A stretch of DNA of 64,000 nt from Bacillota bacterium (GTDB taxonomy: Bacteria > Bacillota > TC1): NCBI GenBank assembly GCA_028683955.1, contig JAQUGR010000001.1, positions 248,001-312,000 on the forward strand. The letters run 5' to 3'. The notes beneath the pieces were generated by a model that saw only the letters and a list, made by a program, of their open reading frames with translations, was not told the DNA's origin and searched no databases. Position 1 is the first letter of the stretch, and each line of letters begins with the position of its first letter. Both the position numbers and the translations under genes were made by a program. Shown here in pieces: positions 19,157 to 23,852 of the stretch.

Positions 19157-19292
19157 AAAAAAAAATCTTCCCACAGGAAGATGACAAATTTTGTTATGCT
19201 TTCATCTTGCAGTAAAACTGAGGAGTTAGCACCTTGCATATGCAGGTTGCTGAGGTTTCATAGGGCCGATCCCTTCACCTCTCTTGATGATT
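19157..19292 (-). promoter_or_regulatory. SAM-I (S-box) riboswitch upstream of metA
   Basis: On the minus strand the leader carries the S-box core: AGAGAGGTGAAGGGATCGG, GGCCCTATGAAACCTCAGC, and GGTGCTAACTCC. P1 pairs TCATC (19290-19286) with GATGA (19206-19202). AAGATGA at 19208-19202 can instead pair with TCATCTT at 19184-19178, which frees no terminator arm: this is the antiterminator. When SAM holds P1, ATCTTCC (19182-19176) pairs with GGAAGAT (19171-19165) followed by eight T residues, a terminator. So high SAM should switch metA off. Confidence 0.96.
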
Positions 19293-19300
19293 ATTTTAAG

Positions 19301-20983: not shown

Positions 20984-21012
20984 TTGACAATGTAACGCAT
21001 TTTTTCTACAAT
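20984..21012 (+). promoter_or_regulatory. Near-consensus sigma-A promoter of rny
   Basis: Perfect TTGACA (20984-20989), a 17-base spacer, and TACAAT (21007-21012). The expected transcription start is near 21019-21020. It gives a leader of about 180 bases before the rny ATG. Confidence 0.8.
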
Positions 21013-21114
21013 AAATCATAGATGAATATAAATATTTGTGAAAAAGTAATTTGACTATATAATTGTATAGTATTTTATATATAATTTATAAGTTAATAAA
21101 GAGGTAAAATAGCG

Positions 21115-21147
21115 ATGCGAATAGCACACTACTTTTTTACGTTTTAA
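21115..21147 (+). CDS. Candidate 10-codon leader peptide MRIAHYFFTF upstream of rny
   Basis: ATG 21115 is preceded by AAAGAGG (21098-21104), ten bases away. The open frame reads MRIAHYFFTF and stops at TAA 21145-21147, which lies over the first bases of the terminator hairpin that begins at 21146. This is the geometry of translation-dependent attenuators: a ribosome at the last codons would cover the 5' arm. Three of ten residues are Phe and one Tyr. The product is unrecognised, and the peptide itself may have no function. Confidence 0.5.
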   Translation: MRIAHYFFTF

Positions 21148-21179
21148 CATGTTAGGTATATTCATCTAACATGTTTTTT
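21146..21179 (+). terminator. Intrinsic terminator (attenuator) inside the rny leader
   Basis: AACATGTTAG (21146-21155) and CTAACATGTT (21166-21175) form a perfect 10-bp stem with a 10-base loop, followed by TTTT. It lies between the promoter at 20984 and rny, not after a gene. Bases 21157-21167, mostly the loop, are perfectly complementary to 21020-21030 at the start of the expected transcript. Confidence 0.82.
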
Positions 21180-21198
21180 AATATAAGGAGGAAAGAAG

Positions 21199-22755
21199 AT
21201 GAATGGTATAATAATTCCGGTAATAATTGCTATTCCTACAATAATAATAGGATTTATAATAGGTTATGTTTTTAGAAGAACTTTATCAGAAGGCAAATTA
21301 AATAATGCGACTCTAAAAGCGAACGAAATTGTTGATTTAGCTCAAAAAGAAGCTATTACAAAACAAAAAGAAGCTATTATTGAGGCAAAAGAACAAATAC
21401 AAAAAATGAAAGAAAAGATGCACGAAGAAATTACTAAGGAGCAAAGAGATAGAAAAAGCGAATGGGGTCAAGTAGAAAAAAGATTGCATGATAAAGAGGA
21501 TATGTTAGATAAAAAACAGAATACTCTAGATGCAAGAGAAGAAACTATACATAAACAAGAAGTAATAGCATCTGATTTAGCAGAAAAAACGAAAAAATTA
21601 CATGATGAACAGTTAATAAAGTTGCAAGAAATTTCTGGGGTCACAGTCGAAAAGGCCAAGGAATACTTGTTAAATAATGTTGAACAAGAAATAAGACAAG
21701 AAACAGCAGTATTAATTAGAGAAATTAAAGAAAAAGCAAAAGAAGAAGCGGATAAAGAAGCGAAAGAAATAGTTATGCGAGCTATACAAAGATGCGCAAC
21801 TGATCATGTAGCCGAAGCTACAGTATATGTCGTGTCACTCCCTAATGATGAAATGAAGGGCAGAATAATAGGTAGAGAAGGTAGAAATATTAGAACAATT
21901 GAAACTTTAACCGGAGTTGATTTGATAATTGATGACACGCCTGAAGCAGTTGTATTATCTGGTTTTGATCCTGTAAGAAGAGAGATAGCTAGAATTACAT
22001 TAGAAAAACTAATAACTGATGGTCGTATACATCCAGGTAGAATAGAAGAAACTTATGAAAAAGCTAAGCTTGAAGTTGAAAAAGAAATAAAAGAAGCTGG
22101 TGAACAAGCTTTACTTGAAGTTGGAATCAGTAGAATACATCCAGAATTAGTTAAATTGATAGGTAGATTGAAATATAGAACAAGTTACGGACAAAATATT
22201 TTGAAGCATTCTCTTGAGGTAGCTCATTTGTCAGCTAATTTAGCTTATGATTTAGGTGCTGATCCAGATATTGCTAGAAGAGCAGGACTTTTGCATGATA
22301 TAGGTAAAGGTGTTGATCATGAGATTGAAGGAACACATGTGGAAATTGGCGTTAACCTATTACATAAGTATAAAGAAAATAGTGCTGTTATCCATGCTGT
22401 AGAAGCACATCATGAAGATGTTGAAGCTCAAACAATGGAAGCTGTTATAGTTCAAATAGCTGATTCTTTATCAGCGGCAAGACCGGGAGCAAGAAGAGAA
22501 ACATTAGAGTCTTATATTAAACGTTTGCAAAAACTTGAAGAAATTGCTGACGGTTTTGAAGGTGTAGAAAAATCATATGCTATTCAAGCTGGTAGAGAAG
22601 TTAGAATAATGGTTAAACCTGATGCCATTGATGACTTAGAAGCAATTAACTTGACAAGGTCAATCGTTAAAGAAATTGAATCGGAAATGGATTACCCTGG
22701 TCAAATAAAAGTCATGGTAATAAGAGAAACAAGATCAATTGAATATGCTAAGTAA
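21199..22755 (+). CDS. rny: Ribonuclease Y
   Basis: Membrane-anchored endoribonuclease that starts mRNA decay in Firmicutes. 518 residues: an N-terminal membrane helix (about 4-24), a long coiled coil (about 30-200), a KH domain ([31 protein letters not shown] region), and an HD domain with [26 protein letters not shown] precedes ATG 21199. It sits downstream of recX but has its own promoter and leader. The next genes are ymdB and spoVS, as in many clostridia. Confidence 0.97.
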
Positions 22756-22780: not shown

Positions 22781-23557
22781 ATGAAATTATTGTACTTTGG
22801 TGATATAATTGGGAAAAATGGTATTCGTGCTTTAGAAAAATTCCTTCTAGCTTATTTAAAAGAAAATAAAGTTGACTTTATTTTTGCTAATGGTGAAAAT
22901 TTAGCAGGTGGCAAAGGGATCACCAAAAAATATTTTTTAGAAGCGAAAAAAATAGGAATTGATGGTGTTTCTACAGGTAATCATATTTTTGACAAGAGAG
23001 AGATATATGGACAATTAAAAGAATTTCCAGAAATAATCAGACCATTAAATTATCCTGTAGGTACTCCAGGTAAGGGATTTCATATATTTTTAAAAAACGA
23101 TATGAAAGTAGCTCTTATAAATGTTTCTGGAAGAGTATTTATGAAGACTTTGGATTGTCCCTTTAGAAGGATAGAAGAAATTATTAGTAGCTTGAGAAGT
23201 GAATGTAAGACCATAATAGTTGATATTCATGCAGAAGCGACTAGTGAAAAGAAAGCAATGGGTTATTTTCTTGATGGAAAAGTTACAGCAGTAGTAGGTA
23301 CTCATACGCATACTCAAACTAATGATTGTCAATTATTACCGAATAAGACATTCTATATGAGTGATTTAGGTATGGTTGGAGCTAAAACTAGTATTTTAGG
23401 AGTAAAGAAAGAAGTAATCATAAATCATTTTCTGACAGGTATGCCTTTTGCACTTGAAGTTGCAGAGGAAGGACTAGCTAATATTAATGGTGTTGAATTA
23501 GATATTGATGTTGAGGGTAAAGTAACAAGTTATAAAATTATCAACCAAGATATATGA
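22781..23557 (+). CDS. ymdB: YmdB-family metallophosphoesterase (TIGR00282)
   Basis: Calcineurin-like phosphodiesterase; the Bacillus member hydrolyses 2',3'-cyclic nucleotides and affects biofilm and motility choice. 258 residues with the metal-binding stretches YFGDIIGKNG, NGENLAGGKGIT, STGNHIFDKRE, DIHAEATSEKKAMG and GTHTHTQTND. The ribosome binding site is weak (TTGGAAT), so expression may rely on rny transcription and coupling. It directly follows rny, the RNase with which its role is tied in Bacillus. Confidence 0.93.
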   Translation: MKLLYFGDIIGKNGIRALEKFLLAYLKENKVDFIFANGENLAGGKGITKKYFLEAKKIGIDGVSTGNHIFDKREIYGQLKEFPEIIRPLNYPVGTPGKGFHIFLKNDMKVALINVSGRVFMKTLDCPFRRIEEIISSLRSECKTIIVDIHAEATSEKKAMGYFLDGKVTAVVGTHTHTQTNDCQLLPNKTFYMSDLGMVGAKTSILGVKKEVIINHFLTGMPFALEVAEEGLANINGVELDIDVEGKVTSYKIINQDI

Positions 23558-23588: not shown

Positions 23589-23852
23589 ATGGAAGTCTTA
23601 AAAGTATCAACCTCATCTAAACCAAATCTGGTGGCAGGTGCGCTTGCGGCAATGATTAGAGAGACTGGAACAGTTGAAATACAAACTATTGGAGCTGGAG
23701 CACTAAATCAAGCTATTAAAGCTATTGCTATAGCTAGAGGCTTTGTTGCACCTGGTGGAATAGATATTGTTTGTATTCCTGCGTTTACAGAGGTCGAAAT
23801 TGATGGGGAAAAGAGAACAGCCATAAAACTTATTGTTGAACCTAGAAAATGA
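23589..23852 (+). CDS. spoVS: Stage V sporulation protein SpoVS
   Basis: Small Alba-fold protein that promotes sporulation steps in Bacillus. 87 residues: MEVLKVSTSSKPNLVAGALA, GAGALNQAIKAIAIARGFVAPGGIDI, and IPAFTEVEIDGEKRTAIKLIVEPR are near-invariant in the family. SD AAGGAGG is strong. Its presence fits a spore-forming lineage, but homologues also occur in non-spore-formers, so it is not proof. A terminator follows. Confidence 0.96.
   Translation: MEVLKVSTSSKPNLVAGALAAMIRETGTVEIQTIGAGALNQAIKAIAIARGFVAPGGIDIVCIPAFTEVEIDGEKRTAIKLIVEPRK

Follow-up and report, generated by a model that had tools for sequence, protein, structure and literature searches.

A probable transcription attenuator upstream of rny, with the mRNA 5' end as its putative antiterminator

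RNase Y sets the decay rate of many Gram-positive mRNAs. We consider it likely that its gene, rny, is controlled in a Bacillota bacterium by a transcription attenuator in which the 5' end of the mRNA itself acts as antiterminator, a judgement that covers the attenuator and its 5'-end antiterminator and not the signal to which it responds. The anatomy of the leader and its conserved complementarity, together with the mutual exclusion of the two folds in the window (the whole 64,000-nucleotide stretch analysed here), are established from sequence and computed folds; from these we infer that termination occurs at the leader hairpin and that in vivo the 5' strand serves as antiterminator. Recurrence of the same layout, with differing sequences, in most of the sampled families points to a widespread and apparently undescribed switch, which probably lets RNase Y limit its own production.

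The rny leader and its two folds

The leader lies downstream of recA and recX, and rny is the sole match in the genome to PF12072, the RNase Y N-terminal family. Farther upstream, the window holds a SAM riboswitch on the minus strand (19199-19293, RF00162, 75 bits), upstream of a minus-strand metA-type homoserine acyltransferase gene. The features of the locus are as follows.

20984 to 21012, forward strand: promoter of the rny transcript, TTGACA-17-TACAAT, 11/12 consensus matches
21019 to 21030, forward strand: 5' strand of helix P1 (putative antiterminator strand, transcript 5' end), UAGAUGAAUAUA; identical in the window and in three further members of the genus, with an 8-bp core kept in a fourth, L006
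21037 to 21048, forward strand: 5' strand of helix P2, UGUGAAAAAGUA; GUAAAAAAG:CUUUUUUAC retained in L006 by inspection
21049 to 21129, forward strand: AU-rich spacer between the 5' and 3' strands, candidate region for RNase Y cleavage
21098 to 21147, forward strand: SD-like AAAGAGG followed by the ten-codon frame (MRIAHYFFTF); unlikely to be the conserved device
21130 to 21141, forward strand: 3' strand of P2, UACUUUUUUACG, within the ten-codon frame; pairs with 21037-21048
21146 to 21179, forward strand: intrinsic terminator, with a 12-bp stem at 21146-21175, a 6-nt loop and a T-run to 21179; kept in all genus members
21157 to 21168, forward strand: 3' strand of P1, UAUAUUCAUCUA, overlapping the terminator loop and 3' arm; its pairing with 21019-21030 excludes the terminator
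21199 to 22755, forward strand: rny, ribonuclease Y, 518 aa, the controlled gene (TIGR03319 equivalog, 723 bits)
22781 to 23557: gene for a YmdB-like phosphoesterase, downstream of rny
23589 to 23852: small gene after the YmdB-like gene, spoVS according to the sequence-only reading

The near-consensus promoter described in that reading was borne out, with its -35 element at 20984-20989, a 17-nt gap and its -10 element at 21007-21012, and the transcript is predicted to start at about 21018-21020. The placement of rny only 3' of the terminator was likewise confirmed; the gap between terminator and start codon being only ~20 nt, polymerase starting at the promoters seen must pass the terminator to transcribe rny. 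Two other features were real but had been drawn too short. The terminator is present with a T-run after its stem, but the stem has 12 pairs including one G-U rather than a perfect 10 bp, and the complementarity between the 5' end and the terminator extends over 12 nt rather than 11. When the 5' segment was dinucleotide-shuffled 5000 times, a complement at least as long as this perfect 12-nt one, which forms P1, arose in 7 cases. The second helix, P2, had been missed altogether, and comprises 12 pairs including two G-U.

P1 and the terminator are mutually exclusive in the window. When each fold was forced on 21019-21179, the terminator reached -34.1 kcal/mol and P1 with P2 -32.8 kcal/mol. In computed folds, P1 had a probability of 1.00 in RNA ending at 21168 or 21172, and the terminator a probability of 0.78 in the full-length RNA to 21179. 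These models suggest that the nascent RNA would adopt the antiterminator fold first and that the finished terminator would be favoured only slightly, which would make the arrangement bistable. At 21105-21140, GUAAAAUAG and CUACUUUUUUAC can form a local hairpin that also occupies the 3' strand of P2, and AAAAAAG/CUUUUUU forms its counterpart in L006; it is possible that this hairpin represents a third state and gives another reason for the SD-like purine run.

In the switch that we propose, the 5' strands of P1 and P2 would be synthesised first. The 3' strand of P2 would emerge after the AU-rich spacer, pair back and bring P1 beside the terminator, whereupon P1 would capture part of the terminator and RNA polymerase would read into rny. 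Were the 5' strand missing or blocked, the terminator would form and rny would be off. The part of the terminator paired by P1 is the loop and 3' arm in the genus of the window organism, and the 5' arm and loop in most other families.

The ten-codon frame and conservation in the genus

The sequence-only reading had favoured control by a ribosome held on a leader peptide, with pairing of the 5' end to the terminator loop as an alternative switch. It is the alternative that fared better, this pairing being a real alternative fold and itself the conserved core. The ten-codon frame itself is where it had been described, running from the ATG at 21115 to the TAA at 21147, with its stop codon on the terminator arm and the SD-like AAAGAGG (21098-21104) 10 nt upstream of the ATG. 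Conservation of the frame and of the hairpin in relatives had been suggested as a check. All four other species of the genus (L003, L004, L005 and L006) retain the terminator hairpin, along with the promoter, the pre-terminator CUUUUUUAC and the 5' AUAGAUGAA segment. The start, frame and SD-like sequence are kept in four of the five (the window and L003-L005) as M[RLQ][IR]A[HY][YN]FFTF; L006 has lost the frame while retaining the promoter, both helices and the terminator.

Under a loose criterion, a scan of 116 leaders picked out five frames that are led by an SD and end close to the terminator. Three are the genus frame (L002, which is the window, to L004) and the remaining two are unrelated; the frame of L005 was missed because its SD lies farther away. 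Outside the genus, the genus frame was thus not found among the ~110 other leaders scanned. Furthermore, in the four species where the frame survives its substitutions are mostly non-synonymous, the distance between SD and ATG drifts within the genus (10 to 13 nt), and the conserved codons (TTT TTT AC) coincide with the 3' strand of P2, the invariant part of the frame, CTTTTTTAC, pairing with GT(A/G)AAAAAG near the 5' end. The leaders therefore lack the conserved, translated short frame overlapping the switch that marks a leader-peptide attenuator. It is accordingly very unlikely that rny is read because a ribosome stalls on MRIAHYFFTF and masks the terminator arm, despite the position of the stop codon and the retention of the frame in most of the genus, and we rejected the leader peptide as an explanation of the device. 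Within this genus, translation may be coupled locally to the switch, but such coupling cannot be the conserved mechanism.

Compensatory changes in the two helices, also suggested as a check, were found across families but are thin within the genus, since P1 and P2 of the window are conserved mostly by invariance. P1 of L006 retains UAGAUGAA:UUCAUCUG, in which an A-to-G change gives a U-G pair. The class holding the window organism comprises ten genomes only. For L007, of the sister genus, P2 can be made out by eye with two mismatches but no P1 can be recognised; among the order-level relatives, L008-L011, pairing does not exceed that of shuffles. A 6S RNA gene lies close downstream of rny in order-level relatives (L008:426-595, minus strand; L010:3893-4061, plus strand); no 6S RNA was found in the window at the Rfam gathering threshold.

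Distribution and pairing across the phylum

The wider sample consisted of rny upstream regions from 126 genomes in 54 families of the phylum, and leans to nearer relatives because it was chosen from the best RNase Y matches. A promoter (TTGACA-17/18-TANAAT) scoring at least 11, where each of the 12 consensus positions that matches counts 1 and a 17-nt spacer adds 0.5, was present in 124/126 regions. A terminator lay between promoter and rny in 116/126, 96 of these 116 being of the CCGAG...CTCGG type, with a T-run after the hairpin in nearly all leaders, so that a promoter and then an intrinsic terminator precede the gene as in an attenuator. The scan found no terminator in the other ten regions. 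At least four of these ten (L029, L169, L178 and L179) lack the whole leader and terminator and carry a near-consensus promoter ~50 nt from rny, an apparent natural loss of the switch. In 20 more distant families, about half had the terminator. The exact core CCGAGTTTCTACTCGG occurs at 16 sites in 299 whole genomes, all directly upstream of rny, and repeats of the leader elsewhere in the genome were not found at the DNA level.

Gut Clostridia were considered as further carriers and rejected: the TTGACA promoter is present with almost no terminator (one exception, L052). Many of the gut Clostridia MAGs L053-L089 share an AU-rich 'AAAATATATT...TTCGAACATTGAAAATTAAATAAG' element just before the SD of rny, which looks like another conserved type of rny leader.

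Pairing was evaluated in the 85 leaders whose terminator is preceded by 95 nt or more. The first 55 nt were matched against a 3' segment made up of the terminator arm and loop and the 40 nt preceding the terminator. Cognate pairs averaged -29.4 kcal/mol versus -18.4 kcal/mol for non-cognate pairs (z -22.9), and no permutation came near the cognate value; dinucleotide shuffles of either strand averaged -17.5 kcal/mol and the recX-tail control -15.6 kcal/mol. The best duplex had a median of 33 base pairs. A median of 2.5% of GC-matched non-cognates were equally stable, and against shuffles of their own sequence the leaders had a median z of -4.0, with 79% at p<=0.05. Taken separately, each helix was specific: z was -18.5 for the pre-terminator part (P2) and -9.1 for the arm and loop of the terminator against the 5' end (P1), with 0/10000 permutations as low in either case. 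These permutation tests do not fully remove the effect of relatedness, a concern that the slid and GC-matched controls reduce. In nascent folds of the same 85 leaders, at least one base of the terminator arm or loop was paired with the first 60 nt (probability >0.5) in 94%, versus 58% when the 60 nt were shuffled.

The complementarity also follows changes in the terminator itself. In families without the CCGAG type, the 5' end is complementary to quite different terminators, pairing as AGUAGCCC:GGGCUAC in L149, GGAGAAUUCAG:CUGAGUUUUCC in L171 and CCCCUGG:CCAGGGG in L190. Within one family, the terminator arm itself shows a compensatory change, with GUUUC:GAAAC in L195 and GUCUC:GAGAC in L200 and L204. 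It is highly improbable that the arrangement is due to chance or is a plain recA-recX operon-end hairpin with no regulatory role: the hairpin does come after recX, but a near-consensus promoter sits between the two and, over 54 families, the two sides of the pairing covary.

When 41 joined half-leaders were run through RNAalifold, no long-range consensus emerged, seemingly owing to misalignment of the helices by MAFFT; clade alignments and the cognate/non-cognate comparison were used in its place. In the f29 clade, RNAalifold found the helix with little covariation, the clade being too similar. In group A3, a six-genome clade alignment, both sides had changed in 9/23 pairs, with a covariation of 0.44 versus 0.04-0.08 in slid controls. 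The A3 helix touches only the first bases of the terminator stem, and helix and terminator could for that reason stack rather than compete. Evolutionary conservation of an alternative pairing that excludes the terminator is found, except that the A3 helix reaches only the first stem bases, L007 has no recognisable P1 and L008-L011 pair no better than shuffles. Such stacking, together with a pairing that starts at the predicted 5' end and an RNase J homologue encoded in the genome of the window, would also fit a role in which pairing of the 5' end serves chiefly to protect or position the mRNA (keeping its 5' end from RNase J and pyrophosphohydrolase) and the hairpin is a 5' stabiliser causing little termination. 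We regard this as unlikely, given the T-run that follows nearly every hairpin and the exclusion of the terminator by P1 in the window.

Candidate signals and known systems

Within the attenuator reading, the leading candidate for the signal, at somewhat less than an even chance, is cleavage by RNase Y of its own nascent AU-rich leader. Excess RNase Y would cut the leader and detach the antiterminator, shutting its own gene in a negative feedback. Several observations favour this signal: the exact core is confined to rny; in B. subtilis, RNase Y represses its own gene by cutting the rny mRNA, the strongest 5'-UTR cuts falling in the first 50 nt (PMC10303841); and the enzyme has a preference for a G/A step within unpaired, AU-rich RNA (PMC11780869). 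It is further favoured by the enrichment, ~42-45 nt from the start, of AU-rich ATAGAT (35/101 vs 8.6) and TTATATA (31/101 vs 8.3). The spacer, whose length varies between genomes, has an AT content of 69% versus 56% in the recX tail. More tentatively, the leaders may form a phylum-wide class of riboregulators in which RNase Y gauges its own activity by cutting the nascent leader, the terminator then closing, and spacer length would set the time available for cutting.

Short leaders count against an RNase Y cut, since they leave little time before termination. About 30 are under 95 nt, in some of which the terminator follows after only 18-40 nt, and as a group they show a weaker signal of pairing between 5' end and terminator (z -3.0). 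In L027, L166, L202, L203 and L213, the CCGAG terminator comes only ~18-25 nt after the predicted start. The same switch might instead answer to another signal, namely RNase III acting on the long helix, a protein or small molecule at the conserved 5' GGGAGAAAC or loop elements, or temperature, a possibility that competes only with the RNase Y signal and is nested in the attenuator reading. Conservation of the 5' GGGAGAAACTAG and of the internal GGGTTTCTTATATATAGAT seems to exceed what pairing by itself would require, and an RNase III gene is encoded in the genome; however, no ligand or protein is indicated, and the restriction of the exact-match core to rny favours an rny-specific signal. We rate this possibility only a little below the RNase Y signal. 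Rfam covariance models gave only weak and irrelevant matches in the leaders, with no riboswitch, T-box or other family, and a known RNA family was rejected.

If the attenuator reading is true, an rny-dedicated attenuator in dozens of families constitutes an undescribed RNA family of very simple design, and how a cell measures its RNA-decay capacity becomes testable with one reporter. What would be new here is a terminator/antiterminator attenuator that uses the mRNA 5' end as antiterminator and is dedicated to a decay nuclease. The feedback of RNase Y known from B. subtilis is post-transcriptional, and we know of no terminator involved in the rne feedback of E. coli RNase E. That 5'-UTR feedback resembles the rny leader in that a decay-initiating nuclease is sensed via its own leader, and differs in being post-transcriptional, with RNase E binding a stem-loop and cleaving elsewhere in the transcript (as cited in PMC10303841). 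In the open-access literature, subscription papers lying outside the search, we found no rny attenuator and only the stability mechanism of B. subtilis. The latter concerns the same gene, with a ~164-nt 5' UTR and a sigma-A promoter, and RNase Y lowers its own mRNA; in contrast to the switch proposed here, it works on mRNA stability, and the text of the paper mentions neither a terminator nor termination (PMC10303841). The trp and erm leader-peptide attenuators share with the genus of the window a short frame running into the terminator arm, whereas here that frame is not conserved beyond the genus and the gene under control serves neither biosynthesis nor resistance. The rny leader also resembles attenuators with intrinsic terminators (riboswitch, T-box and leader-peptide), which have a mutually exclusive antiterminator and terminator in the 5' leader (PMC2965389); the main text of that survey of premature terminators names no ribonuclease genes. 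It differs from these attenuators in having no known aptamer, tRNA or peptide sensor, in an antiterminator strand that would be the extreme 5' end of the transcript, and in its target, a decay nuclease.
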